Below, piece after piece: positions 10,360 through 34,516 of a stretch of DNA of 60,619 nucleotides. The notes below the pieces were generated by a model that was given only the letters and a program-made list of their open reading frames with translations, was not told the DNA's origin and did no database searches. The position numbers and the translations under genes are program-made. How positions within the stretch are numbered: the stretch's first letter is position 1; each line of letters opens with the position of its first letter. Origin of the DNA: a virus; the IMG/VR virus record IMGVR_UViG_3300045119_000430, positions 1 to 60,619 of that record; one strand, written 5' to 3'.

Positions 10360-10408
10360 GGGATATCCGATCTTTGAGGGGCCCGCTTTCGCGGCGGACA
10401 GTGGATCT
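10360..10408 (+). promoter_or_regulatory. Leaderless late promoter P1 with GGGATATCC box
   Basis: GGGATATCC at 10360-10368, TTGAGG at 10374-10379, 17-bp spacer, GACAGT at 10397-10402, then exactly 6 nt to the GTG of terS at 10409. There is no Shine-Dalgarno. The same geometry recurs at 12385, 20203, 29130 and 33952. Confidence 0.65.
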
Positions 10409-11008
10409 GTGCCGCAGAAGCTGACCCCACGCCAGGCGCGGTTCGTCGAGGAGTACCTCATCGACCTCAACGCCACCAAGGCCGCGGAGCGTGCGGGGTT
10501 CAGCGCCAAGACGGTCCACGTTCAGGGTCCGAGGTTGTTAGCAAATGTTAGGGTTGCCGAGGCCATCGCGGCGGCCAAGGAGAAGCGTCTAGCCCGGGTC
10601 GAGATCACCCAAGACAGGGTGCTCCGCGAGCTCGCCGCCCTGGCGTTCTCGAACCTGACTCACTTCGAGGTCGATGACTTCGGCAAGATCACGCTAGCGC
10701 CTGATGCCCCGACAAACGCCCATGCCGCCGTGTCGTCCATCAAGCACCGCATCACGAGAGACGAGGATGGCAACACGACCCGGGAAGTCGAGATCAAGCT
10801 CTGGGACAAGCCGAGCATGGTGAAGATCGCAGGCCGCCACACGAACACCCCCGGATTCTGGGACCGCATGGAGGTGTCGGGACCGGACGGCAAGCCGATC
10901 GAGATCCAGGAGCAGCGCGCAGCGGTCAACTCGAAGATGGAGGCCCTCTTCCGGGTGGCGGCGGCCAAGCGCGCAGAGATCGAGCCAGGGCCGAAGCCAG
11001 GGGAATAG
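10409..11008 (+). CDS. terS: Terminase small subunit
   Basis: A 199-aa protein of the Terminase_2 type. LTPRQARFVEEYLIDLNATK and an AAERAGFSAKTVHVQG helix-turn-helix at residues 4-50 form the DNA-recognition domain, followed by a helical oligomerisation region. It recognises packaging DNA and hands it to the large subunit encoded 3 nt downstream. The start GTG lies 6 nt from the proposed -10, suggesting leaderless translation. Confidence 0.88.
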   Translation: MPQKLTPRQARFVEEYLIDLNATKAAERAGFSAKTVHVQGPRLLANVRVAEAIAAAKEKRLARVEITQDRVLRELAALAFSNLTHFEVDDFGKITLAPDAPTNAHAAVSSIKHRITRDEDGNTTREVEIKLWDKPSMVKIAGRHTNTPGFWDRMEVSGPDGKPIEIQEQRAAVNSKMEALFRVAAAKRAEIEPGPKPGE

Positions 11009-11011
11009 CCG

Positions 11012-12388
11012 GTGGGCGTCCCTGCGGGGATAGAATTCCTGGCTCAGTTCGAATCCCTGGAGGCGTTCGACGCGCAGTTTGACACGGCCGATGAGGCAGC
11101 CGCCGCGCGCCGAGAGATCGCGGACGCCTGGCGCTGGGTCGCCCGCCCCGAGCAGCTCGAGCCCGCGAACGACAACCGAAGCCAGTGGCTTACATGGCTG
11201 ATCCTCGCCGGCCGAGGCTGGGGAAAGAGCCGCGTAGGCGCCGAGACGATCCTAAATTGGATCATCACGGGCCAATGCCGGCGGGTGGCCCTCGTCGCCC
11301 CGACATCGGCCGACGCTCGCGATGTCATGGTCGAGGGCGAGTCCGGGATCCTGGCTTGCTCGGAGCGCGCGCAGTTCCCGGGCCGGTACGAGCCGTCTAA
11401 GCGTCGGATCACGTGGCCGAACGGCGCGATCGCCACCCTGTACTCGGCCCAAGAGCCGGATCGTCTCCGCGGCCCCCAGCATGATGGGGCGTGGGCGGAC
11501 GAACTAGCCGCCTGGCACAACCCGCAGGCCGTCTGGGATCAGCTTCAATTTGGGCTGCGCCTAGGTCTTCACCCGCGGACTATCGTCACCACGACGCCCC
11601 GACCGCTGCCCATCATCAAGGCGCTGATCAAGGATCCTTCGGTCGCCATCACGAAGGGATCGACCTTCGACAATGCGCCCAACCTGGCAGCGTCGTTCCT
11701 GCGCGCCATCCGCAACGCCTACGAAGGTACACGCCTCGGCCGCCAAGAACTGAACGCCGAGATCCTGGACGACAACCCCGGCGCCCTCTGGCGGCAGGCG
11801 ATGATAGACGCCCTGCGCGTTCAGACAGCGCCGATGGAGATGCAGCGGATAGCCATCGCCATCGATCCTGCCGTCACCGCCAACGAGGACAGCGATCTCA
11901 CCGGCATGGTGTCGGGCGGCCGCGCGCCGTGCCGCATGCTACCGGCCTGCAAGGGGGAGGTTCACGCCTTCGTCTTCGACGATGAGTCGGGCATCTATAC
12001 CCCGTCCGAGTGGGCCAAGAAGGCCTGCACGACCTACCATGCCCGCCGAGCCGACCGGGTGATCGGCGAGGTTAACAACGGCGGTGACCTCGTGGAGGCC
12101 AATCTCCGCGCCAACGGAGACGCCACGGTCAGCTACCGGGCCGTCCACGCCTCCCGGGGAAAGATCATTCGAGCCGAGCCGATCGCCGCCCTCTACGAAC
12201 AGGGGAAGGTCCACCACGTCGGAACCCACGGCAAGCTCGAGGACGAGATGACCCAGTGGGACCCGCTCGCGGGGATGAGGAGTCCCAGCCGCATGGACGC
12301 CCTGGTCTGGCTGCTGACCGACCTGATGCTCGGGGAGGCCCGCGTCGGCGGCGCGCCCCGCGTACCGGGTGCTGGGCGCCGTATTTGA
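11012..12388 (+). CDS. terL: Terminase large subunit
   Basis: A 458-aa packaging motor. Walker A is LAGRGWGKSR at about residues 65-74, and the Walker B/acidic segment is GAWADELAAW near 160. The coupling motif is VTTTPRP near 193, and the C-terminal nuclease domain begins at IAIDPAVTANEDSDLTG with its catalytic Asp near 287. The length is typical. GTG 11012 follows terS by 3 nt. Its stop codon lies within the next promoter's -35 element. Confidence 0.93.
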   Translation: MGVPAGIEFLAQFESLEAFDAQFDTADEAAAARREIADAWRWVARPEQLEPANDNRSQWLTWLILAGRGWGKSRVGAETILNWIITGQCRRVALVAPTSADARDVMVEGESGILACSERAQFPGRYEPSKRRITWPNGAIATLYSAQEPDRLRGPQHDGAWADELAAWHNPQAVWDQLQFGLRLGLHPRTIVTTTPRPLPIIKALIKDPSVAITKGSTFDNAPNLAASFLRAIRNAYEGTRLGRQELNAEILDDNPGALWRQAMIDALRVQTAPMEMQRIAIAIDPAVTANEDSDLTGMVSGGRAPCRMLPACKGEVHAFVFDDESGIYTPSEWAKKACTTYHARRADRVIGEVNNGGDLVEANLRANGDATVSYRAVHASRGKIIRAEPIAALYEQGKVHHVGTHGKLEDEMTQWDPLAGMRSPSRMDALVWLLTDLMLGEARVGGAPRVPGAGRRI

Positions 12389-12419
12389 GGGTAGGCGGGA
12401 TATCCCCCACGCTCGCTCC
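12385..12419 (+). promoter_or_regulatory. Leaderless late promoter P2 for the portal gene
   Basis: TTGAGG at 12385-12390 (containing the TerL stop), 17-bp spacer with GGGATATCC at 12397-12405, CACGCT at 12408-12413, then 6 nt to GTG 12420. No Shine-Dalgarno. This spacing decides the portal start. Confidence 0.62.
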
Positions 12420-14642
12420 GTGACCCCAGGAATGAAGGCGCGGGCGGCGACTCTTCGAACGCAGCTGCGCCAACTCCCAACGCAGAGCCTGATCGACCCC
12501 GACGACATCGGCGACATTATCGGGATCATGCGGCATCTCCGTCAGGGGACGCTGCGAGACGCCGCGCTTCTCTGCGACGCCATCGAGGGCGACGACCGCA
12601 TCAAGGCCGTGCAGGAGACGCGGGTAGGAAGTCTTCGGGCGACGTCGTTGAACGTGAAGCCGGCCGCCGACCGGTCATTGCTCGATTTGACCGATGGCGA
12701 AGAGCCGAAGCCCGACGCCGAACGGACGAAGCTCACGCAGCAACTGGCCCAGCAACTCGGCGGGGTCGACGACGTGCCGGGCGAGTGGGACCGCATCTTT
12801 CCTCCTGGCGTGATCGGCGACCTGTGTCGATGGGGGACTCTGCTGGGCATCGGCGTTGCCGAACAGATCTACCCGCAGTCCAAGCCGCCGTGGATACCTC
12901 GTCTGAAGATCTGGCACCCGCAGTTCATTCGTTGGGACTGGGCGCGCGACTGCTACCGCATCTTGACGGCGGATGGCGAGATCGATCTCCCTCGTCTCGA
13001 CGAGAACCCAAACGGCGACGGCCGCTGGCTGATGTGGTGCCCCTACGGCTACCGCGAGGGATTCAAGCGGGGGCTGATCCGCGCGATGGGCAAGCTCTAC
13101 GTGATGCGCCAGTGGGACGAGCGGGATTGGGCTCGCTGGAACGAGACCAAGGGACTCGGGATCGTCAAGGCGATCATGCCGATGACCGAGAACGAGGAGG
13201 TCGACCAGCAGTTCCTCAACGACATTTCGAATCGCGGCTCAGAGGCGGTGATCGCCGTCCGCAAGGGCGAAGAAGGCAACCAGTACGACATCGAGAACGT
13301 GTCCGACTCGGCCGGCGGCGAGGGATGGAAGTCGTTCCAGGAGTTCAAGCGGGCGCTCGACGTGGACATCGCAGTCCTCTGGCTCGGCCAGAACCTCACG
13401 ACCGAGAGCCCGTCGAACGGGTCGAGCTCCAAGTCGCTCGGCGAGGTCCAGCGCGCGACGAGCCTGGATCGCCTCAAGGTTGACGCTGGGATTGCGACCG
13501 CCGCCTACGACCAGGTGATCGTGCCGATGACGACCATGAACTACGGCGATCCGACGCTGGCCCCGCTGCCCGTCTACGTCACCGAGCCGCCGAAGGATCA
13601 ACTCGCCGAGGCGACGGCCATGAAGATGACCGGCGACGGCGTCACGGCTCTGAAAGGCGCTGGAATCCCGGTCGACGAGCGGGCGATCGGCGAAGACTTC
13701 GGCGTGCCGATGAAGACCGAAGAGCAAGCCGCCGCCGAGAAGGCCATCGCCGACGAGGAAGCCGCCGCGAAGATGCAGGCCCAGCGCGACCTCATGGGCC
13801 AGCAAAACGACACCCCGCCGAGCGCCGAGCAAGACCGGGCCAACCCGTCGGGCAAGGCAGCCCTGCGCGCAACGACGCCCGCGGCCTACCCACGCCGCAC
13901 CTTCGCTGGCCTTCCGGTCGCGATCGAGCACGCCGCCGGCACCACGCGAATCTGGCGCGACGCCGGCCCGAACGGTCAGACGATCGGCTCCACGAAGATG
14001 CTCCACGACTACGGGTTCATCGAGGGCCACATGGGGGCCGACGGCGAGGAGCTCGACGTCTACCTCGGGCCCGACGAGAACGCACCGAACGTCCACGTCA
14101 TCCACCAGAACAAGGCGCCCGACTACAAGTCCTACGACGAGGACAAGACGATGCTCGGCTTCGCCGGCGCCGACGAGGCCAAGGCCGCTTACATGGCTCA
14201 CCGGAACGACGGCGACCGGGCTATCCGCGGCATGTCGTCGATGCCTCTCGACCGCTTCAAGGCCAAGCTGAAGCGACGCACAGGGACCGGTCCGGTACGC
14301 GCCTCGGCGGTCGACGTGGACCGCACTACCGCAGCCCTGGTGGCCCTGGCGAGCAAGGCGGCGGTGAAGCCGCGCAAGGGGAAGGCATGCGACGCCGACC
14401 GCCTCACGGCCAACGCAACCCGCCTGGCGTCACGAGCGCTGGCGCCATACGTGACGGGCGTGCGCGGCCTGCTCGATGGCTTGGCGGACCACCCCGACCC
14501 GTTCGGTGAACTGAAAAAGCGCTTGGTCACCCACTACCGCAAGGCCGACCCGTCTCGGCTCGCAACGGTGGTGGAGCGCACGCGGGTGATGGCGCACATG
14601 GCCGGGCGGGCCGATGTCCACGCGGAGCACAGGTCGGCGTGA
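12420..14642 (+). CDS. Portal protein (Mu gp29/DUF935-like) with C-terminal InPase-like domain
   Basis: A 740-aa protein. Residues 1 to about 430 are a DUF935 portal: IIGIMRHLRQGTLRDAALL, IKAVQETRVGSLRA, the WHPQFIRWDW strand and LGQNLTTESPSNGSSSKS. After an Ala/Glu-rich linker, residues about 495-620 match an inorganic-pyrophosphatase-like fold domain (IEHAAGTTRIWRDAGP, YGFIEGHMGADGEELDVYLG). Such domains are known fused to Mu-type portal or head proteins; their role is unclear. The start at GTG 12420 follows from the leaderless promoter; GTG 12369 would overlap terL. Confidence 0.88.
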   Translation: MTPGMKARAATLRTQLRQLPTQSLIDPDDIGDIIGIMRHLRQGTLRDAALLCDAIEGDDRIKAVQETRVGSLRATSLNVKPAADRSLLDLTDGEEPKPDAERTKLTQQLAQQLGGVDDVPGEWDRIFPPGVIGDLCRWGTLLGIGVAEQIYPQSKPPWIPRLKIWHPQFIRWDWARDCYRILTADGEIDLPRLDENPNGDGRWLMWCPYGYREGFKRGLIRAMGKLYVMRQWDERDWARWNETKGLGIVKAIMPMTENEEVDQQFLNDISNRGSEAVIAVRKGEEGNQYDIENVSDSAGGEGWKSFQEFKRALDVDIAVLWLGQNLTTESPSNGSSSKSLGEVQRATSLDRLKVDAGIATAAYDQVIVPMTTMNYGDPTLAPLPVYVTEPPKDQLAEATAMKMTGDGVTALKGAGIPVDERAIGEDFGVPMKTEEQAAAEKAIADEEAAAKMQAQRDLMGQQNDTPPSAEQDRANPSGKAALRATTPAAYPRRTFAGLPVAIEHAAGTTRIWRDAGPNGQTIGSTKMLHDYGFIEGHMGADGEELDVYLGPDENAPNVHVIHQNKAPDYKSYDEDKTMLGFAGADEAKAAYMAHRNDGDRAIRGMSSMPLDRFKAKLKRRTGTGPVRASAVDVDRTTAALVALASKAAVKPRKGKACDADRLTANATRLASRALAPYVTGVRGLLDGLADHPDPFGELKKRLVTHYRKADPSRLATVVERTRVMAHMAGRADVHAEHRSA

Positions 14643-14821
14643 CGATGCCCAAGAAGGGCGCTCCGAAGAGGCAGCTGACGGCCTACGTGCGAGCGGAACT
14701 GAAAGTCGGCTTGGCCGAGAGGGCCGCGCGGGAAGACCGCCCCGTGCGCGAATTGCTCGAGGAGGCCATCGATCGATTCCTGGCGCCGTCAGCCGAAGAG
14801 CCGGCGCCGAAGCGCGCGTAA
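14639..14821 (+). CDS. Ribbon-helix-helix protein
   Basis: A 60-aa protein, PKRQLTAYVRAELKVGLAER then VRELLEEAIDRFLAP, fitting the beta-strand plus two helices of the CopG/Arc family. GTG 14639 overlaps the portal stop; ATG 14645 is an alternative. It converges on a leftward cluster and could regulate it. Confidence 0.65.
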   Translation: MTMPKKGAPKRQLTAYVRAELKVGLAERAAREDRPVRELLEEAIDRFLAPSAEEPAPKRA

Positions 14822-15004
14822 CATCGCCCGCACGCTGTCGCGAGGCGGACCCTCATCGATCTCGGCGGATATCCGGTTCTCGGCGCGCTTGGCGGTCATT
14901 TCATCGGCCAGGTCGTCACGGCCAAGCGACCGCCGCAGAAGGGCAGCGCGGTCTTGCTCGCGAATCGGATCGGTCGGCAAGTCGGCGAGCCTACCCCGGA
15001 CCAA
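14789..15004 (-). CDS. Possible small leftward protein
   Basis: A 71-aa Arg-rich ORF from TTG 15004, overlapping the end of the upstream leftward gene by 14 nt and the 3' end of the rightward ribbon-helix-helix gene by 33 nt. Support is only tandem position and high GC3. A shorter start at ATG 14899 is possible. Confidence 0.35.
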   Translation of the reverse strand: MVRGRLADLPTDPIREQDRAALLRRSLGRDDLADEMTAKRAENRISAEIDEGPPRDSVRAMLRALRRRLFG

Positions 15005-15308
15005 GGGCGCGGAAAAGCACCGCTTCAGCGAAGGCCTCAGCCGCCGACCGCGGCGCGCCCCTGGCCATGGTCTCGGCGATGATGGCCCGGCGGATATCCG
15101 AGGTCTTCGCGGCCACGCCGGCCTGAAAGCCGAGGAGCCAATCGTCGACCGCCGACGGCTCGGCCCGGCCGGCGCTTACGTCGAGGAGGGCGGGATCGGT
15201 TGCGGTCTCTGGCGTCGACTCGCCGGCGATCTCGCGTTCGGGGACTACCCCGGGATCGTAGAGCGTCGGGGAGTCGTCGTCGAAGAATTCGCCATCGTCG
15301 TCCCCCAT
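14991..15308 (-). CDS. Acidic hypothetical protein, leftward cargo
   Basis: A 105-aa protein with a very acidic N-terminus (MGDDDGEFFDDDSPTLYDP) and a helical C-terminal half (DWLLGFQAGVAAKTSDIRRA). It lies directly downstream of the lipoprotein gene on the strand opposite to the structural genes. Function unknown. Confidence 0.6.
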   Translation of the reverse strand: MGDDDGEFFDDDSPTLYDPGVVPEREIAGESTPETATDPALLDVSAGRAEPSAVDDWLLGFQAGVAAKTSDIRRAIIAETMARGAPRSAAEAFAEAVLFRALGPG

Positions 15309-15330
15309 CTCCCACCCGGCCTGAGCCTTG

Positions 15331-15798
15331 TCAGCAGGGCTCGGCGCGCGGCGGCTCGCGGACGGTCACGCCGTTGAGCGACAGCCAGGCCCTGTACTCG
15401 CCAAGGCGCCAGTAGACCGGGGATCGGTCGGCCTGCAGGGAGTGCTTCGCGAGCCATTCCTTGCCGCGAGCGATCTTGACCGCGGCGAGCGGGTCAACCT
15501 GGGCTCCGGTGGCCTGCTTCTGCAAATCGGCGATCACCTGGGCGACCGCCGAATCGATCACGCCCGTGCAGAGACCCAAGCGCACGGCCAGATCTTCGAG
15601 GTCAGAAACGTAGGCATCGGGCGAGGCCTGGTCACCCAGCGCCGAGCTGACGAGGGCCAGGAGGTCGGGCGTGACTGTCGGCGCGCACTTCGTCACCGTG
15701 CTGGCCGCGGTGGCGCAGGACGACACGTAGGCGCCGAAAGACAGCAGGCAGACGGCGATGGAAACGGCGGCGATGAGGCGGGACAGGCTGACGCGCAT
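15331..15798 (-). CDS. Putative exported lipoprotein (moron)
   Basis: A 155-aa protein with a signal-peptide-like N-terminus (LIAAVSIAVCLLSFGAYVSS then Cys), so lipidation at about Cys28 is plausible. The mature part is helical with a C-terminal WLSLNGVTV segment. It has a good AGGAGC Shine-Dalgarno and its own promoter on the minus strand. Independent, opposite-strand transcription inside a late operon is typical of morons, such as lysogenic conversion or superinfection exclusion genes. A spanin role is less likely by position. Confidence 0.65.
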   Translation of the reverse strand: MRVSLSRLIAAVSIAVCLLSFGAYVSSCATAASTVTKCAPTVTPDLLALVSSALGDQASPDAYVSDLEDLAVRLGLCTGVIDSAVAQVIADLQKQATGAQVDPLAAVKIARGKEWLAKHSLQADRSPVYWRLGEYRAWLSLNGVTVREPPRAEPC

Positions 15799-15828
15799 GG
15801 GCGGTGCTCCTGGTTGGTTGGTGGCCCG

Positions 15829-15857
15829 AGCGTGAACCCGCAGTGCGGCGGGCTCAA
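15829..15857 (-). promoter_or_regulatory. Promoter for the leftward lipoprotein gene
   Basis: On the minus strand, TTGAGC (15857-15852), a 17-bp spacer and CACGCT (15834-15829). The -10 is identical to that of the portal promoter. Unlike the other promoters, a leader of about 25 nt with a Shine-Dalgarno follows before ATG 15798. Confidence 0.5.
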
Positions 15858-15877
15858 AGATTTGGCGGGGCGAGAAT

Positions 15878-15905
15878 TTGAGGGCCGAAACAGGACGCGG
15901 AGAGT
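15878..15905 (+). promoter_or_regulatory. Rightward late promoter P3
   Basis: TTGAGG at 15878-15883 in the extended context AATTTGAGGGC, 16-bp spacer, GAGAGT at 15900-15905. A 49-nt leader with AACAGGAGAT precedes ATG 15955, so this copy is leadered. It is divergent from the lipoprotein promoter. Confidence 0.48.
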
Positions 15906-15954
15906 GGTCTCACTTCAGCCGCCTCGCGCGGCGTCCATCCAACAGGAGATCATC

Positions 15955-16446
15955 ATGGCGCGTCTGTACTCTCTCAATGCCGGCGGCCTCACGCTGGCCA
16001 ACCAGGCCGTCACGCTGGCCTTCCTGAACCCGGCGGCGGGCCCCTCCCCGCAGATCAGAATCAAGCGCGTCACCGTCGGCCAGTCCGGCTCGACGACCAG
16101 CGCGATGCAGCGGATCCAGCTGGTCACCCAGGTGACTGCGTTCCCGACGCTGACGTCGTCGACCCCCAAGACGATCACCCTCGGCGACCCGGCCTCGGCG
16201 ATCACCGGCGGCACCGCGGGCGCGGCCGGGACCTCGGGCGTGAACGCCTCGGCGGAAGGCGGCGGCACCAAGACCGTCCGCAAGGAGTCGACCTTCAACG
16301 TGCTCAACGGCTACGAGTGGATCGCCACCCCGGAAGACTTCATCAACCTCCAGGCGGGCAGCACGGCGGGCTTCGGCGTGTTTCTGCCGGTCGCCGCTTC
16401 CTCGCTGAGCAACTGGCAAGTCGAAGTCGTCTTCTCGGAGGACTAA
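15955..16446 (+). CDS. Putative virion/head accessory protein
   Basis: A 163-aa Ser/Thr/Gly-rich beta protein. ARLYSLNAGGLTLANQAVTL leads into IRIKRVTVGQSGSTTSAMQR, and the C-terminus is SSLSNWQVEVVFSED. The composition resembles virion decoration or surface proteins. A strong AACAGGAGATCATC Shine-Dalgarno supports the start and high expression. It begins a four-gene accessory group placed between portal and gpF. Confidence 0.65.
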   Translation: MARLYSLNAGGLTLANQAVTLAFLNPAAGPSPQIRIKRVTVGQSGSTTSAMQRIQLVTQVTAFPTLTSSTPKTITLGDPASAITGGTAGAAGTSGVNASAEGGGTKTVRKESTFNVLNGYEWIATPEDFINLQAGSTAGFGVFLPVAASSLSNWQVEVVFSED

Positions 16447-16451
16447 CCGCC

Positions 16452-16724: not shown

Positions 16725-16733
16725 GAGCGCCCT

Positions 16734-17231: not shown

Positions 17232-17234
17232 TCC

Positions 17235-20169: not shown

Positions 20170-20172
20170 TTC

Positions 20173-20236
20173 GGGATATCCCATTTTCCGTCCGCCGATT
20201 ATTTGAGGGCAAAATCGGCACGCCGATTCTGAGGGG
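20173..20236 (+). promoter_or_regulatory. Leaderless late promoter P4 for the protease gene
   Basis: GGGATATCC at 20173-20181, TTGAGG at 20203-20208 in the context TTATTTGAGGGC, 16-bp spacer, GATTCT at 20225-20230, then 6 nt to GTG 20237. Confidence 0.6.
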
Positions 20237-21430
20237 GTGAAGCAAGCCTCCGTTGCCAGCATCCGATCTCGGATCACCGCCCTTGGCGCGGTCGCGACGG
20301 CATCGCCACTTGAGTTGGCGAACGAGCAGCCGCCAACCGAGTTCAGGATCTTCCGAGCCGGCGCGAACACGAGCGACAAAGGGACGTTCATCTTCGACGA
20401 CGATGCCGCCGAGGCAGTGATGTCGGCATACGCCAAGAAGGCGTCGACCCTCACGATGGACTACGAGCACCAGGCGCTCGCCGATCCACCGATCGAGGCG
20501 CCCGCGTCCTGTTACTCGTGGACGCCAGAAGTCCGCAACGGCGAGCTATGGGCGACCAATGTGAAGTGGACGCCGCGCGCGTCCGGCCTGATCGCCGCGC
20601 GCGAATATACCCGCTTCTCGCCGGCTTTCTTCCACGACCCGAAGACGATGCGCGTTCAGAAAATCCTGAACGTCGCTCTCACGAACGTTGAGGCCCTCGA
20701 CGGTATCGAGCCGCTCATGGCCGCGTCCGCAACCAGCCCCACAGGAGATCGACCCATGGCGAAGAAGATGCAATGCAAGGCGTGCCTCAAGGCGCTCAAG
20801 GCCCCGACCGACGACAACGACGGCGACGAGGTGATGTGCACCGCGTGCGGAGCGGCGCCGAAGATGCTGTCGATCGTGGGGCTGAAGGCGACCGCGACCG
20901 ATCACGAGCTCGTGACCGAGCTGTCGGCGATCGCTGGCTTCCGCACGCAGGCGCTCGCTCTCACTGGGCAGGCGTCCTTGCCGGCCGCGCTGGGCACGAT
21001 CGAAGGCTGGAAGAAGAAGGCCGACGGTTACGACGTGCTCGCCGCCGAGTCGGAGAAGGCTCAGGCGACCGCACTGCGCGCCGAGTTGACCACCGTGCTC
21101 GACAACGGCGCCAAGGAGGGCAAGGTTCCCGGCGTCGCTGGAATTGCCGGCACCGTCCGCGCCTCGCTCGAGAAGGGCGCCCTCGGCGTGGGCGGCGGCA
21201 AGCCGTCGCGTGAAGGCATCGAGTGGCTGACCGCGATCATTGCGGCGATGCCGAAGGTTGTCTCGACCGAAGGCGCCACGGCCCCGGTCGACGCCAATGG
21301 CGAGATCGTGACGCTGACCGCTGGCGATAAGGAACTGGCCAAGCGTCACGGCTGGAAGGAAGAGAACGTGCTCAAGGCCAAGAAGGAACGCGTCGCGCGC
21401 AATGCCGCGATGGCCGCCGGCACGGGCTAG
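20237..21430 (+). CDS. Prohead protease-scaffold fusion (Mu gpI-like)
   Basis: A 397-aa protein. Residues 20-165 match the Mu I protease: FRIFRAGANTSDKGTFIFDD, LTMDYEHQALADPP (the conserved DYEHQ), ARGLIAAREY-like YTRFSPAF, and ALTNVEALDGIEPLMA. Residues about 174-397 form a helical, Ala/Lys-rich scaffold that is also made separately from an internal start at 20756. GTG 20237 fits the leaderless promoter. The protease matures the prohead. Confidence 0.9.
   Translation: MKQASVASIRSRITALGAVATASPLELANEQPPTEFRIFRAGANTSDKGTFIFDDDAAEAVMSAYAKKASTLTMDYEHQALADPPIEAPASCYSWTPEVRNGELWATNVKWTPRASGLIAAREYTRFSPAFFHDPKTMRVQKILNVALTNVEALDGIEPLMAASATSPTGDRPMAKKMQCKACLKALKAPTDDNDGDEVMCTACGAAPKMLSIVGLKATATDHELVTELSAIAGFRTQALALTGQASLPAALGTIEGWKKKADGYDVLAAESEKAQATALRAELTTVLDNGAKEGKVPGVAGIAGTVRASLEKGALGVGGGKPSREGIEWLTAIIAAMPKVVSTEGATAPVDANGEIVTLTAGDKELAKRHGWKEENVLKAKKERVARNAAMAAGTG
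20756..21430 (+). CDS. Nested scaffold protein (Mu gpZ-like internal start)
   Basis: ATG 20756 is in frame within the protease gene and has a strong Shine-Dalgarno, ACAGGAGATCGACCC, so a 224-aa scaffold would be produced in excess, as in Mu I/Z and lambda C/Nu3. Unusually, it begins with a zinc ribbon (MQCKACLKALKA, then VMCTACGAAPKML) before the helical scaffold segment. Confidence 0.75.
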   Translation: MAKKMQCKACLKALKAPTDDNDGDEVMCTACGAAPKMLSIVGLKATATDHELVTELSAIAGFRTQALALTGQASLPAALGTIEGWKKKADGYDVLAAESEKAQATALRAELTTVLDNGAKEGKVPGVAGIAGTVRASLEKGALGVGGGKPSREGIEWLTAIIAAMPKVVSTEGATAPVDANGEIVTLTAGDKELAKRHGWKEENVLKAKKERVARNAAMAAGTG

Positions 21431-25495: not shown

Positions 25496-26883
25496 TGCCT
25501 CTCCCCGGCACACAGATCACCGTCGTTGACGGGCAGCAGACGGGTACGGACCAGTACCCGATCCGTATCCCCATGTCGCGCGTGCCGTCCATCCCGACGA
25601 GTCCGCCGGGGAATCCGATTATGTGGTTCGATGCCCAGGACGTCGATGGCGCCGGCAACACGTCAATGGTCGACGGAGCTGCCGTTGCCACCTGGGTGAA
25701 CAAGGGTACGATCGGTTCGGCTGGAAATGCCGTCCAGCCAACCCCGTCCAAGCGGCCGATTTTCTCAGCATCCATCGATCCACCTCAGATCAGCAATAAG
25801 GCTGGCGTGATGTTCGACGGGGTAAATGACTGCCTCCGTTCGTCTCCCTTCACGCTGCAGGCGGGACCGTGGACGTTCGGGATGCTTTCCAGGATCGTTC
25901 CCAACGGCACGCAGGCGATGTTCGGAACGGCGACATCGACGACCTATGTACAGGGCACCAATTTTCACATGGGCGGCAGCATCGATGCCGCTACCGGCCT
26001 GGTGGTTGCCACAGATAGTGGGCAGTGGGAGGTTTACACCGGCGTCTACAATGGCGCGAGTACCGTTGCCAGGCTTCTGGGTCTGCAGGCAACGGTGGAC
26101 TCGGGAACATCGTCGGTCGACCGGGTATCAATAGGTGCCCTGGCCGCGCAGGAGCAGTGGTTCTTCAGCGGGCCGATCGTCGAACTAGTGATCTATGCCG
26201 GGGCAGGCCAGCCGACGCAGATCCAGATCGAGAACTACTTCGCCCAGAAGTACCGCATGAGCACGCGGATCATGTATTGCGGCGACTCCATCACGCAGGG
26301 GGTCGGTGGCGCTGGTCCTGAATTCGTCAGCCTTGGATGGCGCGGGCGGCTCTGGAACTCTTTCCCTCCATGGTCTCTGCGTCCGCTGGGCGGCCTGTCG
26401 GACGGAATCACGCCTCGGCCACAGCATGAGGGATTCGGCGGCCTTCGGATCGCTCAGATCGCGGCGACTATTGGCGGCGGCCTGTCATCGTTTCGCCCGA
26501 ACATCTGCACGTTCATGGGCGGAACGAACAATGCCACGGGCGGCGAAACGTCGAGCAGCATGCTGACAGACATCGCGGGAGCCGTAGACGCGTGCTTCGC
26601 GGCCGGATCGGTGACCCTGGTGCTCCTGGCTAGCCCGCCGCCCCGGAACGATGGCGACGTGGTTGCCCAGAACACGACGAGTGATTTCGCTGCCGGTCTC
26701 CCGGGAGTGGTCGCCGCGAAAACGGCGGCGGGGAAGCCATGTATCTACATCCCGGTGTTCGAGTCCTTGAACACGTCAGACATCCTGTCGTCCAACGTCC
26801 ACCCCAACGATCAGGGCTACGGGAAGATCGCGTCGCTGTTCGCGGCGGCGATCCAGCCTTACCTGACGTCCCCGCTTTCTTGA
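25495..26883 (+). CDS. LamG-SGNH hydrolase, probable virion enzyme
   Basis: A 462-aa protein. Residues about 35-250 form a LamG/ConA-like lectin domain (MWFDAQDVDGAGNTSMVDGA, GVMFDGVNDCLRSSP, WFFSGPIVELVIYAG). Residues about 258-460 form an SGNH/GDSL esterase: block I CGDSITQG (Ser about 265), block II EGFGGLRIAQI, block III MGGTNNATGG, block V NVHPNDQGYG (His about 436). The residue three before His is Ser where Asp is usual. It is inserted between connector and sheath genes and may deacylate host surface polysaccharide. Confidence 0.82.
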   Translation: MPLPGTQITVVDGQQTGTDQYPIRIPMSRVPSIPTSPPGNPIMWFDAQDVDGAGNTSMVDGAAVATWVNKGTIGSAGNAVQPTPSKRPIFSASIDPPQISNKAGVMFDGVNDCLRSSPFTLQAGPWTFGMLSRIVPNGTQAMFGTATSTTYVQGTNFHMGGSIDAATGLVVATDSGQWEVYTGVYNGASTVARLLGLQATVDSGTSSVDRVSIGALAAQEQWFFSGPIVELVIYAGAGQPTQIQIENYFAQKYRMSTRIMYCGDSITQGVGGAGPEFVSLGWRGRLWNSFPPWSLRPLGGLSDGITPRPQHEGFGGLRIAQIAATIGGGLSSFRPNICTFMGGTNNATGGETSSSMLTDIAGAVDACFAAGSVTLVLLASPPPRNDGDVVAQNTTSDFAAGLPGVVAAKTAAGKPCIYIPVFESLNTSDILSSNVHPNDQGYGKIASLFAAAIQPYLTSPLS

Positions 26884-26922
26884 GGCCGAGCCACACCACT
26901 CCATCATGACAGCGAGGCACAA

Positions 26923-28626: not shown

Positions 28627-28638
28627 GGAGATCGGTCC

Positions 28639-29118
28639 ATGCTCAATCCAGCACCGTTCGTTGACGTCAACGGGATCTTCGTCTCGCGCACCAGCTGCAC
28701 GATGAGCGTCGACAGCCTTCCCATCCGCCTCTTCAAGGGCGTCCACTGGAACAAGAAGCTCACGCGCGGCAAGACCTGGGGCAACCGGGTCACGCCTCGG
28801 GGGCGCGGGAGAGGGAAGTTCGAGCCGTCTGGCGACCTCGAGGTCTACATCGAGGACTGGACCATCATCCGGAACTTCCTCGCCGCCAAGAACCCGGCGC
28901 GCGGGTGGATGCTGAACAGCTTCACGCTGACGGTCACCGCGTTCGAGGAGGCGATCGGCGGTGCCTTCACCGTTCAGCTGGTGGGCTGCACAGTCTCCGA
29001 GGACGACAACTCCGTGAGCGACGGCGACGATCAGATCAGCCGCAAGCTCACGCTCGACGTCATGAACATCATAGAGGACGGCATCCCGGCGGTGCTGGAG
29101 AACACGGGTATCTTCTGA
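28639..29118 (+). CDS. Tail tube protein
   Basis: A 159-aa protein directly after the sheath, with a strong AAGGAGAT Shine-Dalgarno. SCTMSVDSLPIRLFKGVHWN, FEPSGDLEVYIEDW and QISRKLTLDVMNIIEDG fit the beta-sandwich tube proteins of contractile tails. Role from synteny and predicted strand pattern. Confidence 0.8.
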   Translation: MLNPAPFVDVNGIFVSRTSCTMSVDSLPIRLFKGVHWNKKLTRGKTWGNRVTPRGRGRGKFEPSGDLEVYIEDWTIIRNFLAAKNPARGWMLNSFTLTVTAFEEAIGGAFTVQLVGCTVSEDDNSVSDGDDQISRKLTLDVMNIIEDGIPAVLENTGIF

Positions 29119-29129
29119 TCGGCGAGAAC

Positions 29130-29164
29130 TTGAGGCGGGATATCCCGGAGCCTAACGTCGGTGC
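29130..29164 (+). promoter_or_regulatory. Leaderless late promoter P5 for the tail-chaperone/tape-measure block
   Basis: TTGAGG at 29130-29135, 17-bp spacer holding GGGATATCC at 29137-29145, TAACGT at 29153-29158, then 6 nt to ATG 29165. No Shine-Dalgarno. Confidence 0.65.
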
Positions 29165-29509
29165 ATGCCAATCACCGCACCGATCATCCCGGAGTTGACC
29201 GACGAGACCAGGGCCGAACTGGCCAGCAAGTTGCCTGGTGTCGATCTTCAGATCGTCCGCGCCCAGAAGACGTCCTTCGTCGGCGTCATTCGTCCGGCCA
29301 CGGACGGCGAATGGAGCATCTTCCGTCGCACGCAGGTCGAGGACAAGGTGAAGGCGAACTTCATGCTGAGCGAGAGCTGCGTAGTCTGGCCGTACAAGGC
29401 CGACCGCGATGCGATCTTCGCTCGCTATCCCGCCCTGCGCGAGGTCTGCGTCGGCGAGATCTGCGAGATGGCCGGCGTGGAGGCGACGGCCACTCGGGAA
29501 AAACTGTAA
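29165..29509 (+). CDS. Tail assembly chaperone, short product
   Basis: A 114-aa protein (IIPELTDETRAELASKLP, FVGVIRPATDGEWSIFRRTQ, VVWPYKADRDAIFARYPALR) immediately before the tape measure, as expected for the G product of a G/GT chaperone pair. Its last codons, CGG GAA AAA CTG TAA, contain an A5 run allowing a -1 slip into the extension. Confidence 0.78.
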   Translation: MPITAPIIPELTDETRAELASKLPGVDLQIVRAQKTSFVGVIRPATDGEWSIFRRTQVEDKVKANFMLSESCVVWPYKADRDAIFARYPALREVCVGEICEMAGVEATATREKL

Positions 29510-29676
29510 AGGGATTCCGCGCGGCCAAGCGGGATCTCTTGAAATCGGCAGTGGCCTTGCGCGCTTTCATGCGCGACGAAAAGAGCGTCGAGGCCGACGT
29601 CGGTGCTCTGCTGGTTGCAGATGGTCTCCATTGTCTGCGAGTCGTTCGTCAGTTCCTGATCGGATCGAAGGAGTGA
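29165..29676 (+). CDS. Tail assembly chaperone, -1 frameshift product (GT-like)
   Basis: After a -1 slip at the AAA codon 29501-29503, translation continues in the frame GTTVKGF... to the stop at 29674-29676, adding about 57 residues (FRAAKRDLLKSAVALRAFMR, then CLRVVRQFLIG). The extension is helical and has no start of its own. Total about 170 aa. The -1 re-pairing is perfect for Lys AAA but imperfect for the preceding Glu GAA, so the slip site is non-canonical. Confidence 0.68.
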
Positions 29677-29677
29677 C

Positions 29678-31450
29678 ATGTCCGAGGGGCTGAAATGGCT
29701 GCTCGAGCTCGACGGGAAGACGGAAGGCATCGACAAGATGCTGTCGACCATCGAGGATACGATCGCATCTTTGCCGAAGGCGACGGCGGCGACCAAAGAT
29801 CTGAACGCGTCGATCGAGAAGTCATCCAGCGCCGGCGAGAAGGCCGCGGCCGGTCACAAGAAACACAAGGCCGGGATCGAGGAGACCGAAGGCGCGCTCA
29901 AGCGCTTGGTCAACGCCGGGATTGGTCCCTTCATCGAGAAGGCGAAGCAGATCGCCGAGTTCGAGTTCATCCGCCGCGGCGTCGACAAGATCATCGAGGC
30001 GCCCGGTGAATTGATAGACAAGGTCAAGGAGCTTGGCGAAGAGGCTATCAAGGCAGCGGCCGGCGCCGAGCGCATGGACCTCTCATTCAAGCTGACGATC
30101 GGCCAGGAGGGAGCCGAGAAGGTACTCGGCTGGATTGACCGCATCGCCTCCAAGACCGAGTTCACCGATGATCAACTCAAGGGCTGGGCGAATGAGCTGC
30201 TCGTCGCGGGCGTGAAGGCTGGCGAGGTCGACAAGTTCCTCGCAGCTGGACTCGACGTGGCCGCCAAGAGTCCCGACAAGCTCGCCGGCATGGGCAACGC
30301 GATCGCTGCGCTGACACGTGCCCAGCTCACCGGCCGCGTCGAGGGACGAGCACTCCGAGGTCTGCGCATCGGCGTTGACGAGTTGCGGACACTGCCAGAA
30401 TTCAAGGGCCTCTCGGCCAAGGCACTCCACGAAAAGATGGAGCAGGGTTCGATCTCTAAGAACGATCTGCTCAGGCTCATCGCCGGGCCCGACAAGCAAC
30501 TCGGCGATCTAGGCCTTAAGGCCGGTGACACGCTCCAAGCGAAGCTGAAGAACCTGGAGACGCTCCCCGAGCAGTATTTTCAGCGCCTGGCAGAATCTCC
30601 GGCCTTCGAAAATCTGAAAGCCAAGCTCGGCGACGTCTTCGACGCACTCGATCCGGCGAGCCCGCGTGGGCAGAAGATTTTCGGATCCTTGGAGCGGATG
30701 TTCACGACGGTCGTTGACGAGGTGGCGAAGATCGACTTCGTCTCCGTTGCCGACACCTTGGAGCATCGGGTCTTGCCGGCGATCGAGAAGCTGTTCGGAT
30801 TCGCCGCCAAGACCGCCGACGTGCTCGGGACTATCGTCACCGGGGCCGGGTCTGCCCTGGGCTCTGCTCACGCCGTTACGTCGATGGCGGGCGTGACGAC
30901 CAAGACCGCCGAAGACACGAGCTTCATGAAGCGCGTGCTATCGCATCTACCCGGCGTCGGTTCGCTCGGCAAGTCGATCGGGTACCTCGACAAGGACACG
31001 CAGAAAGCTGGCGCTGCGATAGCTGAAGGGACTGCCGACGGAATGGCGGGCGGGATGTCCATGGTCTCGGATGCAGCATCGTCGATGGGTGACGCAGCGG
31101 TGGATGCGTTGCAGAGCAAGCTCGAGATCCATTCGCCGTCTAAGGTCTTCTTCGGGCTTGGCGAGGAGACTGGCGCCGGCTTCGCGGGCGGTGTTCGAAA
31201 GAGCGGGAGCGACGTGGACGATGCGATGGAAGCTGCCTTCCCGGTGCCGGGATTGCGGCCGGGGGCTTCGATCGGTGGCGGCGGAGGCTCATCGATCAGC
31301 GTCAGCCTGCCTTCCATTCAGGTCAACATGCATGGAGGCAGCGGCGACGCGCGCGAGGACGGAGAAGCAGCAGGGGAAGGCCTGGGCGGGGTTTTCCGTC
31401 GCGAGTTGCTGCGGGTGATGGAGCAGCTGCAGATCGAAGGGGGCGCCTGA
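29678..31450 (+). CDS. Tail tape measure protein
   Basis: A 590-aa protein with GAAGGAG Shine-Dalgarno. The N-terminal half is helical (residues 1-130), followed by FTDDQLKGWANELLVAGVKA and a hydrophobic middle near 375-395 (ADVLGTIVTGAGSALGSAHA). The C-terminal LEIHSPSKVFFGLGEETGAG is a common tape-measure signature. By the usual relation of about 0.15 nm per residue, the tail would be roughly 85-90 nm long. Confidence 0.88.
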   Translation: MSEGLKWLLELDGKTEGIDKMLSTIEDTIASLPKATAATKDLNASIEKSSSAGEKAAAGHKKHKAGIEETEGALKRLVNAGIGPFIEKAKQIAEFEFIRRGVDKIIEAPGELIDKVKELGEEAIKAAAGAERMDLSFKLTIGQEGAEKVLGWIDRIASKTEFTDDQLKGWANELLVAGVKAGEVDKFLAAGLDVAAKSPDKLAGMGNAIAALTRAQLTGRVEGRALRGLRIGVDELRTLPEFKGLSAKALHEKMEQGSISKNDLLRLIAGPDKQLGDLGLKAGDTLQAKLKNLETLPEQYFQRLAESPAFENLKAKLGDVFDALDPASPRGQKIFGSLERMFTTVVDEVAKIDFVSVADTLEHRVLPAIEKLFGFAAKTADVLGTIVTGAGSALGSAHAVTSMAGVTTKTAEDTSFMKRVLSHLPGVGSLGKSIGYLDKDTQKAGAAIAEGTADGMAGGMSMVSDAASSMGDAAVDALQSKLEIHSPSKVFFGLGEETGAGFAGGVRKSGSDVDDAMEAAFPVPGLRPGASIGGGGGSSISVSLPSIQVNMHGGSGDAREDGEAAGEGLGGVFRRELLRVMEQLQIEGGA

Positions 31451-32091
31451 TGTCCGCCGCTGGACTCGCCGCACTCACGCCGATCGCCGCCCTCGGCGGA
31501 TCCATCGAGTTCTGGGGCAACGGCTCAGAGGAAGACCTCGACGGCGTGATCGCGAAACACCCGTGGGACGTGGCCTACCTAGCCAACATGGCTCTGCCCG
31601 GGATCTGCGAGGTCAAGATGGTCAGCGTCGCGCGCGTCGAGATCGACAAGAAAAAGCCGAAGGGCGTGAACTACGCGAGGGTCACGATCCTGGGCTACGA
31701 TCCCGGCACGTTCGACGTCTCGTGCAAGATATGGACTCGCGATCACTGGACCAAGCTTCAGCAGATCGTCCGCACGATCTGGAAGGGACCAACCGCCGAG
31801 CGCGGGGACCAGGCCTCGATCGCGGTACGCCATCCCATACTTCGGCTGGCGAAGGTGTATTCCGCGATCGTGGTCGGCTTCACGCCCGGGGTCCCGGGGC
31901 CAGAGGCGGGAACGATGGTCTTCACGTTCCACCTCCACGAGAACCCGCGGGCGCAGAACAAGAACGTGACGGCGTCTCCTGCCGGCTCGACAACCGTAGT
32001 CGATCCGCTCAGCCTCAGCGGCGGGTCGAGCAACGGACCGGCGCCGATGCCGAGCGCGGACAAGAACTTCATGTCTCCCGTCCCGAAGTGA
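31450..32091 (+). CDS. Baseplate/tail protein in Mu gpN position
   Basis: A 213-aa beta-rich protein: SIEFWGNGSEEDLDGVIAKH, VEIDKKKPKGVNYARVTILG, WTKLQQIVRTIWKGP and MVFTFHLHENPR. It follows the tape measure where Mu has gpN. I cannot match it securely to a family; a role as baseplate hub adaptor is inferred from order. The C-terminus is Pro/Ser-rich and flexible. Confidence 0.65.
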   Translation: MSAAGLAALTPIAALGGSIEFWGNGSEEDLDGVIAKHPWDVAYLANMALPGICEVKMVSVARVEIDKKKPKGVNYARVTILGYDPGTFDVSCKIWTRDHWTKLQQIVRTIWKGPTAERGDQASIAVRHPILRLAKVYSAIVVGFTPGVPGPEAGTMVFTFHLHENPRAQNKNVTASPAGSTTVVDPLSLSGGSSNGPAPMPSADKNFMSPVPK

Positions 32092-32095
32092 CGCA

Positions 32096-32764
32096 GTGGC
32101 ACTCATCAACCTCAATGGCGCCGCGGTCCTGGACGGCAGCTCGCTCTACTTTTCCCGCACCGGCGCCTGGCATGCCGAGCTTCGCGTCGACACGCAAAGC
32201 GCGATCGGCGACGGCTGTGAGATCAACATCGCCGACGGGGCGCTCGTGCTTGAGGGTACGGCCGACCGGTCGGGTCTGTTCGCCGACACCGGCTTCGTGC
32301 GTGTCGTTGCTGGCGCGAATGGGCTCGGCACGACGGCCAAGCCCAAGCACTACGACGACCCGACGATTCGGGTCGTGCTTGCCGACCTCCTGGCGAACGC
32401 GGGCGAGGTCATCTCGTCGACCGCCGACGCCAGCATCCTGGGTCGTCACCTGACCGCGTGGACGACGACGGCGCGCCCGACGGGCCCCGTGGTCTCCCTG
32501 CTTGTGCAGCAGGCCCCAAACACGAGCTGGCGCATGCTCCCCGACGGAACGCTGTGGGTGGGGACAGAGTCCTGGCCAGACTCGGGTCTCGACCCAACGA
32601 CGTACCAGATTCTAGACGAGTTGCCGTCGGACGGGTCTGCCGACCTCGGGATGGACGCCCCCCTCCTGATCGCGGGGGTGTCGCTCGCCGGGCGGCATGT
32701 GTCGGCGGTGGAGCATCGGATCGACGGGCGGGGCGTGCGGGCGCGGGTGTGGTTCGAGCCCTGA
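32096..32764 (+). CDS. Baseplate hub-like protein in Mu gpP position
   Basis: A 222-aa beta-rich protein (GDGCEINIADGALVLEGTA, VLADLLANAGEVISST, WRMLPDGTLWVGTESWPD, VEHRIDGRGVRARVWFEP). GTLWVGTE-like strands and the position before the spike gene are reminiscent of hub proteins, although it is shorter than Mu gpP. Assignment from synteny. Confidence 0.62.
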   Translation: MALINLNGAAVLDGSSLYFSRTGAWHAELRVDTQSAIGDGCEINIADGALVLEGTADRSGLFADTGFVRVVAGANGLGTTAKPKHYDDPTIRVVLADLLANAGEVISSTADASILGRHLTAWTTTARPTGPVVSLLVQQAPNTSWRMLPDGTLWVGTESWPDSGLDPTTYQILDELPSDGSADLGMDAPLLIAGVSLAGRHVSAVEHRIDGRGVRARVWFEP

Positions 32765-32804
32765 ACGCGCGGCCAGCTTGCGGGCGGCCGGCGCCGGCGG
32801 GACG

Positions 32805-33176
32805 ATGCGCCGCATGCCGGACATCTGGGTCTGCAAGAACTGCCACCACGTCGGGCCCGGCGGGAGGCGAGGCGGGTCATCGCTGCCTGCCTGCCGGTCG
32901 TGTGGGCACAGCACGATCTTGCCGGTCGCGTCGCCCGTGGGGCTCGAGTTGGCGACGAGGCTGGGCGTCACGGAGCAACACCTGATGCGCGCGCAGTGGC
33001 TGGCCTACCCGACGAGCAACCGCATCGGGTGGACCATCTTCGGCGCGATAGGGTGCGCGGGCTCGGCGGCGGTCGGGTTCCCGACGTGGGCGGTCATCTG
33101 GGGTGCGATCGCGCTGGGGTTCGGCCTCTCCCTGATCGTCCACTTCACCCAGGAGCCGAAGCCGCCAGGCACCTGA
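32805..33176 (+). CDS. Zinc-ribbon membrane protein (cargo)
   Basis: A 123-aa protein with an N-terminal zinc ribbon (WVCKNCHHVGPGG, then LPACRSCGHSTILP) and two C-terminal transmembrane segments (IGWTIFGAIGCAGSAAVGF and WAVIWGAIALGFGLSLIVHF). It is not a usual tail protein, so it is probably cargo inserted between the hub and spike genes. ATG 32805 is chosen because the ribbon begins there. Confidence 0.65.
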   Translation: MRRMPDIWVCKNCHHVGPGGRRGGSSLPACRSCGHSTILPVASPVGLELATRLGVTEQHLMRAQWLAYPTSNRIGWTIFGAIGCAGSAAVGFPTWAVIWGAIALGFGLSLIVHFTQEPKPPGT

Positions 33177-33190
33177 ACTAACGCGCAGCA

Positions 33191-33940
33191 TTGCAGGGCG
33201 TCACGAGTGCAGCCATCATGCGTGACATGGCCAAGGGACGCAGGACGGTGGAATTCGCGGGGCGGGCTCCCGGCAAGTCGTCAGGGCGCGGCCCGCGGCT
33301 CTGGGCCTATTCGTATTCTGACCTCGCCCATCTGCTCTCGACGACGGAGGACGCGCTGAGGGCTCGCGTGTCGCGCGGCTCCTTCTCTCCCGGCAATCTC
33401 GAGGAGGTGTGTCGGGCGTGGGCGTCGGCGCGCGGCCTGCTCGCGTGCGTAGCCCTAATACTCGTCGTCTCCGCGGGCTGCATGGATCTGGAGTCCAACC
33501 CCGATCAGGAGCTTCGGGGCGAGACTGGGGCTGGTGGCGCTGCGGAAGCCGATGCGGGGACATTGGGCGCTGGAGGTGCAGCGGGGGCGATGGCGGCTGG
33601 ATCCGGGGGCCGCAGCGCGGCCGGCGGGTCGGGATCGGGTGGCGCGGTCGCTCCCAGCGGCGGCGCGCCCGGCGATGGCGGTGCTGCATCCATGGGCGGC
33701 GAGACGGGGAGTGGCGGCGCCACGCAGGCCGGGGGTGCGGGCGGGACGAGCACGCTGGGCGAGCAGTGCAGCGACGCGAGCGTAGTCCTGGGATGCTTCA
33801 CGTCAGCCGGGTCGGCCGCCCTGCACAAAGACGGCAGGGCGTGCGCGCAATGCTACAACTCCGTCGGCTTCCTCCTCCCGGGATGCTACGCGGGAACGCC
33901 GCAGATGCTGTGCGTCTCGTCCTGCTCCGAGTGCTCGTAG
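33191..33940 (+). CDS. HTH-like segment fused to a Gly/Ala-rich lipoprotein with Cys-rich tail
   Basis: The 249-aa frame begins with a basic segment and a helical unit resembling small DNA-binding proteins (YSYSDLAHLLSTTEDALRAR, then GSFSPGNLEEVCRAW). It continues without a stop into a signal peptide with lipobox (LLACVALILVVSAGC), a 90-residue Gly/Ala/Ser stalk and a Cys-rich C-terminus (SDASVVLGCFTSAG, ACAQCYNSVGFLLPGC, CVSSCSECS). An internal GTG at the VCRAW codon could start the lipoprotein separately. The stalk-plus-Cys-tail design is common in myxobacterial surface lipoproteins. Confidence 0.6.
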   Translation: MQGVTSAAIMRDMAKGRRTVEFAGRAPGKSSGRGPRLWAYSYSDLAHLLSTTEDALRARVSRGSFSPGNLEEVCRAWASARGLLACVALILVVSAGCMDLESNPDQELRGETGAGGAAEADAGTLGAGGAAGAMAAGSGGRSAAGGSGSGGAVAPSGGAPGDGGAASMGGETGSGGATQAGGAGGTSTLGEQCSDASVVLGCFTSAGSAALHKDGRACAQCYNSVGFLLPGCYAGTPQMLCVSSCSECS

Positions 33941-33951
33941 TCCGCCGAAAC

Positions 33952-33985
33952 TTGGGATAGCCGACCGCCCACGTAACGTGGGCTG
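33952..33985 (+). promoter_or_regulatory. Leaderless late promoter P6 for the baseplate block
   Basis: TTGGGA at 33952-33957 (overlapping a one-mismatch box GGGATAGCC), 16-bp spacer, TAACGT at 33974-33979, then 6 nt to GTG 33986. The -10 is identical to that of P5. It resets transcription after the lipoprotein cargo. Confidence 0.58.
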
Positions 33986-34516
33986 GTGCTGGCCGATAGG
34001 CTGAAACGCGCGTTCGCCGCCGTCGCGCGCGCAGCTACGCCCGAAATCGACTACCTGACGACGTACCGCGCCCGCGTGGTCTCGCAGGACGCGAGCACGG
34101 GCAAGGTCGACGTGGTGCCCGACGATCCGCGGCTGCCGCAGACGGGCATGTCGAACCTGCGGCTCAAGCACGGGCTGCCGAACGTGATTGTCCGGATAGC
34201 CCCCGGGGCCTTCGTGCAGGTCGGGTGGGACAGCGGCAACCCGACGAAGCCGTATGCGGCGCTCTACGAAGACGGCGCCACGGTCATCAAGCTCGTCGTC
34301 GACGGGACGCAGATCTTCATCGGCGGTGAGACTGGGGCAGAGCCTGCGGCCAAGGCGGTCACATTGACCGCCTATCTCACGCAGTTGACTGGACTGCTGA
34401 TCTCGCACGTCCACTCTGGCGTCACCTCAGGCGGTGCGGTGAGCGGGCCGGCGCCGTCGCTGACTGCGATCGTACCGATCCCGAACTTCGCCGCAACCAA
34501 GGCCCAGGTCGCCTGA
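33986..34516 (+). CDS. Baseplate spike protein (Mu gp45 / P2 gpV-like)
   Basis: A 176-aa protein with an N-terminal OB-like region (TYRARVVSQDASTGKVDVVP, then VRIAPGAFVQVGWDSGNP) and a C-terminal repeat region including LISHVHSGVTSGG. The HxH motif matches the metal-binding tip of gpV/gp45 spikes, which pierce the outer membrane. That implies a Gram-negative host. GTG start fits the leaderless promoter. Confidence 0.85.
   Translation: MLADRLKRAFAAVARAATPEIDYLTTYRARVVSQDASTGKVDVVPDDPRLPQTGMSNLRLKHGLPNVIVRIAPGAFVQVGWDSGNPTKPYAALYEDGATVIKLVVDGTQIFIGGETGAEPAAKAVTLTAYLTQLTGLLISHVHSGVTSGGAVSGPAPSLTAIVPIPNFAATKAQVA

Follow-up and report, generated by a model that had tools for sequence, protein, structure and literature searches.

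Five promoter-like sites ahead of virion genes

The window analysed here is the whole 60,619-nt IMG/VR virus record IMGVR_UViG_3300045119_000430 (coordinates are 1-based). Its virion gene region carries five copies of a promoter-like element, each of which lies a nearly constant distance ahead of a start codon. The initial annotation of this DNA had proposed that they form one promoter class giving rise to leaderless late messages. It described a TTGAGG hexamer (TTGGGA once), 16-17 bp, a second hexamer, exactly 6 nt and then the start codon, and the sequences at the five sites read exactly as described. The first hexamers begin at 10374, 12385, 20203, 29130 and 33952, and the start codons follow 34-35 nt downstream, at 10409, 12420, 20237, 29165 and 33986. 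Four of the five are GTG, as had been claimed, that at 29165 alone being ATG.

All five promoters and their genes lie on the + strand. Promoter 1 (10366-10402) consists of an extended -35 element, TCCGATCTTTGAGG (10366-10379), a 17-nt spacer and the -10 hexamer GACAGT (10397-10402), with a position weight matrix (PWM) score of 20.0. Its predicted +1, 10409, is the first base of the small terminase subunit gene (10409-11008; PHROG 51, E 2.6e-32). In promoter 2 (12377-12413; PWM score 19.0), the extended -35 occupies 12377-12390 and is separated by 17 nt from CACGCT (12408-12413), with the predicted +1 at 12420; the large terminase gene terminates at a TGA within the -35 hexamer of this promoter (12385-12390). 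The gene that follows, gene 18 (12420-14642; PHROG 113/4660), encodes the portal with a minor-head part. The gene finder had called its start at ATG 12432, while GTG 12420 is supported by the motif and by the aligned portal N-terminus. Promoter 3 (20195-20230; PWM score 23.4) has the extended -35 CCGATTATTTGAGG (20195-20208), a 16-nt spacer and GATTCT (20225-20230), and precedes the head maturation protease gene (20237-21430; PHROG 328, E 2.9e-36), which begins at the predicted +1, 20237. Promoter 4 (29122-29158; PWM score 24.9), with GCGAGAACTTGAGG (29122-29135), a 17-nt spacer, TAACGT (29153-29158) and a predicted +1 at 29165, serves gene 39 (29165-29509), which encodes a small tail-region protein and precedes the tape measure gene. 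The weakest -35 among the five belongs to promoter 5 (33944-33979; PWM score 13.6), in which GCCGAAACTTGGGA (33944-33957) is followed by a 16-nt spacer, TAACGT (33974-33979) and a predicted +1 at 33986. Here begins gene 46 (33986-34516), an open reading frame by coding statistics from the tail/baseplate region, with homologues in the more distant relative G014 and in L206. All five genes are predicted to be leaderless.

The pattern TTGRGR-N16/17-NANNNT-N6-RTG has five matches on the + strand of the window and none on the - strand, compared with 0.04-0.07 matches per strand in dinucleotide shuffles, that is, about 0.05 per shuffled sequence. This pattern, a loosened form of the layout, is found at 5 out of 88 predicted ATG/GTG gene starts and at none of 664 internal in-frame ATG/GTG codons (Fisher p = 2e-5), so the claim withstands the comparison with random in-frame codons that the initial annotation had named as a refutation. 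A chance pattern within GC-rich intergenic DNA might be suspected, since the pattern was chosen after the sites had been viewed. However, matches are almost absent from shuffles and internal codons, and the pattern, fixed beforehand, replicates in two further phages; we consider the chance explanation refuted, with next to no probability left to it.

Recurrence, anatomy and translation signals

A megablast search against annotated phages returned no near relative of the window, and single-protein scans with the portal and the sheath found little. Alignment of the tail sheath, whose gene shows the tail to be contractile, reached relatives including a 62,482-bp genome (G018), a 10-kb contig (L152) and one Polyangiaceae genome locus; in another search, 22 out of 379 Myxococcota genomes proved to contain the sheath. 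The relatives were scanned with the pattern fixed beforehand and slightly widened (TTGAGS, N6/7). This retrieved five sites in G018, against 0.02 expected per strand, and two in L152, against 0.01. The sites stand ahead of the portal, protease and gene 39 orthologues, and ahead of further genes on both strands, in phages whose orthologous proteins are only ~30-46% identical. The portal proteins of the window and G018 are 46% identical, both gene models begin at the motif GTG, and the G018 counterpart of promoter 2 reads TTGAGC-N17-CAGTAT-N6-GTG. Promoters 3 and 4 have orthologous sites in both G018 and L152, and gene 39 has orthologues in these two and in L212. Virion genes follow the window sites and the majority of those in G018.

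L217 carries a diverged copy, TTTGAGA-N17-GATCAT-N5-ATG, at a probable small terminase gene. Searches for the motif were negative in sheath-bearing Myxococcota prophages and in the examined part of Myxococcus phage Mx4. Two other relatives show the downstream half of the layout: TACCGT-N6-ATG before gene 39 (L212, 21394) and TACACT-N6-GTG before a gene-47 homologue (L155, 16391). Because both occur without TTTGAGG, leaderless starts may predate this -35 element.

To describe the promoter independently of the start codon, 15 sites were aligned on the -35 alone. The alignment revealed a 14-bp extended -35, CC(G/C)(A/G)G(A/T)(A/T)TTTGAGG, and recovered A(-11) and T(-7), each present in 12 out of 15 sites at a 17-nt spacer, the remainder mostly at 16. 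These are the most important bases of sigma-70-type -10 elements. Elsewhere the -10 is unconstrained, and the hexamers resemble one another less than first appeared: of the two elements originally claimed, TTGAGG stands, as part of the longer -35, whereas the likeness of the second hexamers is reduced to its two constant bases. The class thus has the sigma-70-type arrangement of two elements 16-18 bp apart with A(-11) and T(-7), but TTGAGG and NANNNT take the place of the near-consensus TTGACA and TATAAT. Counted from T(-7), the start codon coincides with +1 in 10 out of 14 sites and lies 1-3 nt later in four. In the three phages, all 14 start codons are ATG or GTG, GTG accounting for seven.

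Ribosome-binding potential was measured as duplex energy with the anti-Shine-Dalgarno sequence. At the 14 predicted leaderless starts the median was -2.8 kcal/mol, practically that of random positions (-2.9 kcal/mol), while the remaining genes of both the window and G018 reached -5.9 to -6.8 kcal/mol (p = 0.001 in the comparison with every other gene whose gap is non-negative) and three members of the class with a predicted leader -6.5 to -7.4 kcal/mol. This split would be hard to explain unless the predicted start sites were roughly right. The claimed lack of Shine-Dalgarno sequences thus holds for the group but not for every gene singly: the starts at 10409, 20237 and 29165 have individual energies of ~-5 kcal/mol, with GAGGGG abutting the start codon at 20237, leaving room for some ribosome-binding contact at individual genes.

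The related copies with leaders, reported earlier at 15878 (+) and 15857 (-), are real. The first (15870-15905, +; PWM score 24.9) has the extended -35 GCGAGAATTTGAGG (15870-15883), a 16-nt spacer and GAGAGT (15900-15905), and its predicted leader of ~40 nt ends in AGGAG ahead of ATG 15955 (-7.4 kcal/mol). The divergent copy (15829-15865, -; PWM score 15.0) has TTGAGC (15857-15852), a 17-nt spacer and CACGCT (15834-15829), with a predicted leader of ~24 nt that also ends in AGGAG, ahead of ATG 15798 (-6.6 kcal/mol). The two -35 elements are 21 bp apart, and the same spacing is found in G018 (6928-/6949+). A possible weak member, itself uncertain, lies upstream of the tail sheath gene (26872-26907, +; TTGAGG at 26880, 16-nt spacer, CATCAT, leader ~9 nt; PWM score 13.9). 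In a weight-matrix scan, the window sites and both leadered copies rank near the top, with promoter 5 and the 26880 site close to background. The two leadered copies lend something to the view that TTTGAGG belongs to leadered promoters of the ordinary kind, or to some other regulatory site, and that its distance from the start codon is incidental. Yet that distance is 34-36 nt in 12 out of 14 sites from three phages, and Shine-Dalgarno sequences are missing precisely at the predicted leaderless starts, making this explanation very improbable.

Palindromes and candidate regulators

A 10-bp palindrome accompanies most of these promoters. In the window it is GGGATATCCG at promoter 1 (10360-10369; centre at -44.5 from the predicted +1) and GGGATATCCC at promoter 2 (12397-12406, in the spacer, -18.5), promoter 3 (20173-20182, -59.5) and promoter 4 (29137-29146, in the spacer, -23.5). 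The form GGGATATCC(C/G) is present at four of the five promoters, and the rest of the window has no copy of it. The relatives have CGGCTAGCCG where the window has GGGATATCCC, and the promoters of G018 and L152 carry GGCTAGCC instead. Shuffling predicts 0.23 copies in the window and 0.89 in G018, where seven were found. The palindromes are fully non-coding in 4 out of 4 cases in the window and 6 out of 7 in G018 (the seventh overlaps a gene end). Six of the seven G018 copies adjoin this promoter class; the seventh GGCTAGCC (62055, reverse complement) stands behind TTGACA, apparently in a promoter of another type. At orthologous promoters the positions are kept between phages: at the protease promoter the centre is at -59.5 in the window and at -61.5 in G018 and L152, which have a second copy at -83.5, and at the gene 39 promoter it is at -23.5 and -22.5, respectively.

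The palindrome looks like a putative operator of a dimeric phage regulator whose specificity has changed between lineages. The regulator would more likely be a repressor holding the late genes silent than an activator, because some copies are upstream while others sit within the spacer or cover the -10. Were they activator sites, late transcription would require the bound protein, in the manner of P2. Several sites do lie near -45 and -60, the usual activator positions, the paired sites upstream of the protease gene in G018 and L152 are 22 bp apart, and the weak -10 would suit an activated promoter. Against this, other sites, centred between -18 and -24 within the spacer or at -11.5 on the -10, are placed as repressor sites typically are, and the centres range from -83.5 to -11.5, unlike the fixed upstream dyad of a P2-type activator. 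We therefore judge the activator explanation rather unlikely and favour the repressor. Plain restriction or methylation sites were also considered, but the confinement of the palindromes to promoters makes this less likely.

Two scans of other DNA for these palindromes gave candidates that we rejected. A search of viral contigs for TTGAGG with the palindrome gave many matches, and the examined loci with homologues shared only one or two window genes and were taken as chance. Six sites from a scan for the GGCTAGCC variant were interpreted as lying in the coding sequence of unrelated contigs; the gap setting of that scan excluded the known G018 site. Separately, the distant relative G014 has a different palindrome, CTAGCAGTGCTAG, before several genes (10684, 13493 and 16840 on the reverse complement).

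Two window genes could encode proteins acting on the -35 element. The first candidate late regulator (9698-10351, +), immediately before the small terminase gene, combines a C-x4-C-x2-H metal-site-like motif with a helix-turn-helix resembling sigma region 4 (Pfam Sigma70_r4, E 0.0018, below the family cut-off). It has homologues in the same place in L212/L213, and one also in G018. A second candidate of the same family (53734-54276, +) matches Sigma70_r4 with E 2.5e-8 and likewise has a homologue in G018. In either protein the likeness is a region-4-like stretch of ~30 residues; because region 2 is lacking, they are not sigma factors by definition. One of them might be a dedicated transcription factor that reads the extended -35 and redirects the host polymerase to the late promoters. 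The window encodes two such proteins and G018 one, a window copy sits immediately ahead of the small terminase gene, an arrangement shared with L212/L213, G014 has neither motif nor protein, and a conserved 14-bp -35 beside a weak -10 would suit a factor of this kind. On the other hand, L212/L213 carry the protein without the motif, so that the link between the two is not established. Members of the family are present on large contigs of a host genome as well, no more than ~30 residues of region 4 are matched, and structure prediction for the sigma-like protein gave an unusable model (mean predicted local distance difference test, pLDDT, 44). We regard the phage factor as a possible but doubtful reader of the -35. 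Its combination with the operators, in which this protein would turn the host polymerase to the leaderless late class while a second, dimeric regulator acts through a palindrome whose sequence switched in step across the late promoters of each lineage, positions being kept, is unlikely.

Several features elsewhere in these genomes were recorded alongside. An immunity-like divergent region of the window (43590-43730) has repeated GTGAGTAC, and the rightward gene at 43722 is preceded by TTGACC-N17-TACAGT-N7-ATG, a near-leaderless promoter of a different type. In G018 (45046-53315, reverse complement; in L166), repeated CCTGGCGTGCAG...GAAGAGTG(A/T)GAAGTATGAAAACC stands before ~8 early-region genes and may represent a second promoter or leader class. 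The window also contains two adjoining N6/N4 DNA methylase genes (4253-6135), a tRNA-Arg(TCT) gene (56063-56138) and an RNA ligase-like gene (56829-57422; PHROG 548, E 1e-30); an Rfam scan detected no family besides a tRNA.

Probable leaderless late expression and known systems

From the layout, its enrichment and conservation, the Shine-Dalgarno split and the palindrome switch, all of them observed, we infer a recurrent promoter class that gives rise to leaderless late mRNAs, with a probability of about 0.83; the actual start sites, the late timing, the polymerase or sigma factor used and the repressor belong to the predicted side. The late region would be read from several separate promoters of this class. 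RNA polymerase, probably the host enzyme, would recognise the extended -35 CC(G/C)(A/G)G(A/T)(A/T)TTTGAGG, open the DNA at a -10 that keeps only A(-11) and T(-7), and begin transcription on the first gene's start codon or no more than ~3 nt from it. The resulting mRNA would have neither leader nor Shine-Dalgarno sequence, and ribosomes would bind its 5'-terminal AUG or GUG. At most promoters a dimeric phage regulator, rather a repressor, would act on the palindromes. The leaderless reading of the initial annotation is thereby supported by the internal codons, the two relatives, the -35-anchored alignment and the Shine-Dalgarno split, and is still a prediction; the palindromes, the full extent of the -35 and the evidence that leaderless starts are common among the likely hosts had been missed.

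A number of observations weigh against this interpretation. The search for the layout in related phages succeeded at orthologous genes of G018 and L152 but failed in more distant relatives: the pattern scan gave no match in G014, G020, L150, L151, L154 or L156, and late genes of the distant relatives that lack the motif are mostly Shine-Dalgarno-led or coupled. The -10 is weak, the one at G018 6949 is poor, and a generic sigma-70 scan picked up none of the four promoters within its range. The uniform 6-nt gap holds at the five window sites but not throughout the relatives, where 4 of the 14 starts fall 36-38 nt downstream of the -35 and so 1-3 nt past the predicted +1. Finally, no palindrome was found at the G018 portal promoter or at window promoter 5.

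The window's relatives indicate that the hosts are probably Myxococcota (myxobacteria). In two sampled Myxococcota genomes, TANNNT peaks 12-15 nt ahead of the start codon where the upstream region is free, at 18 out of 215 and 14 out of 175 such genes, compared with 2.7 and 1.8 expected. With this signature at several percent of genes, leaderless or near-leaderless messages look to be a regular feature of the likely hosts. Judging from this genomic signature, first-base translation is probably ordinary for the hosts, which seemingly use it for some of their own genes. The distinct -35 is the unusual part of the phage system, while its translation side would be ordinary.

If this is true, a set of virion operons in a group of Myxococcota phages depends on first-base translation, which bears on the frequency of leaderless expression in an under-studied phylum. 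Start-codon annotation would be corrected as well, several real starts being GTG without a ribosome-binding site, and the co-switching palindromes would offer a natural series for how a regulator changes specificity at many sites together. The papers covered by a partial literature search make no mention of this promoter family for phages of Myxococcota. The family appears to be undescribed, although leaderless phage late promoters as such are already known.

Several known systems share part of this arrangement. P2-type late promoters, which depend on a small phage regulator (Ogr/Delta), are likewise several and separate, with their main conserved signal upstream of the -10; there the signal is an activator site at a fixed position, whereas the window class combines variable palindromes with a -35. 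The stoperators of cluster A mycobacteriophages resemble the palindromes in being one phage-specific site that is dispersed genome-wide and whose specificity changes between related phages, but they are asymmetric, stop elongation and are more widely scattered, while the window sites are palindromic and tied to one promoter class. Promoters of Thermus phages related to phiYS40 rely on an extended -10. In phiYS40 itself, most middle and late mRNAs are reported to be leaderless and translated by the host (PMC3594737), as predicted for the late messages of the window phage, which differs in its constant extended -35, weak -10, phage-specific palindromes and other hosts. Leaderless genes have also been reported for lambda and P2, and they are a major class in mycobacteria, where a 5'-terminal RTG is sufficient and GTG is as good as ATG (PMC4633059). 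These mycobacterial genes share the RTG starts, but they are bacterial genes of another phylum without a shared long -35. In Deinococcus-Thermus, a -10 motif adjoining open reading frames gives leaderless mRNA (PMC12340547). There it is a host-wide feature of the -10, whereas the window class has a long -35 and a -10 mostly without its first T.

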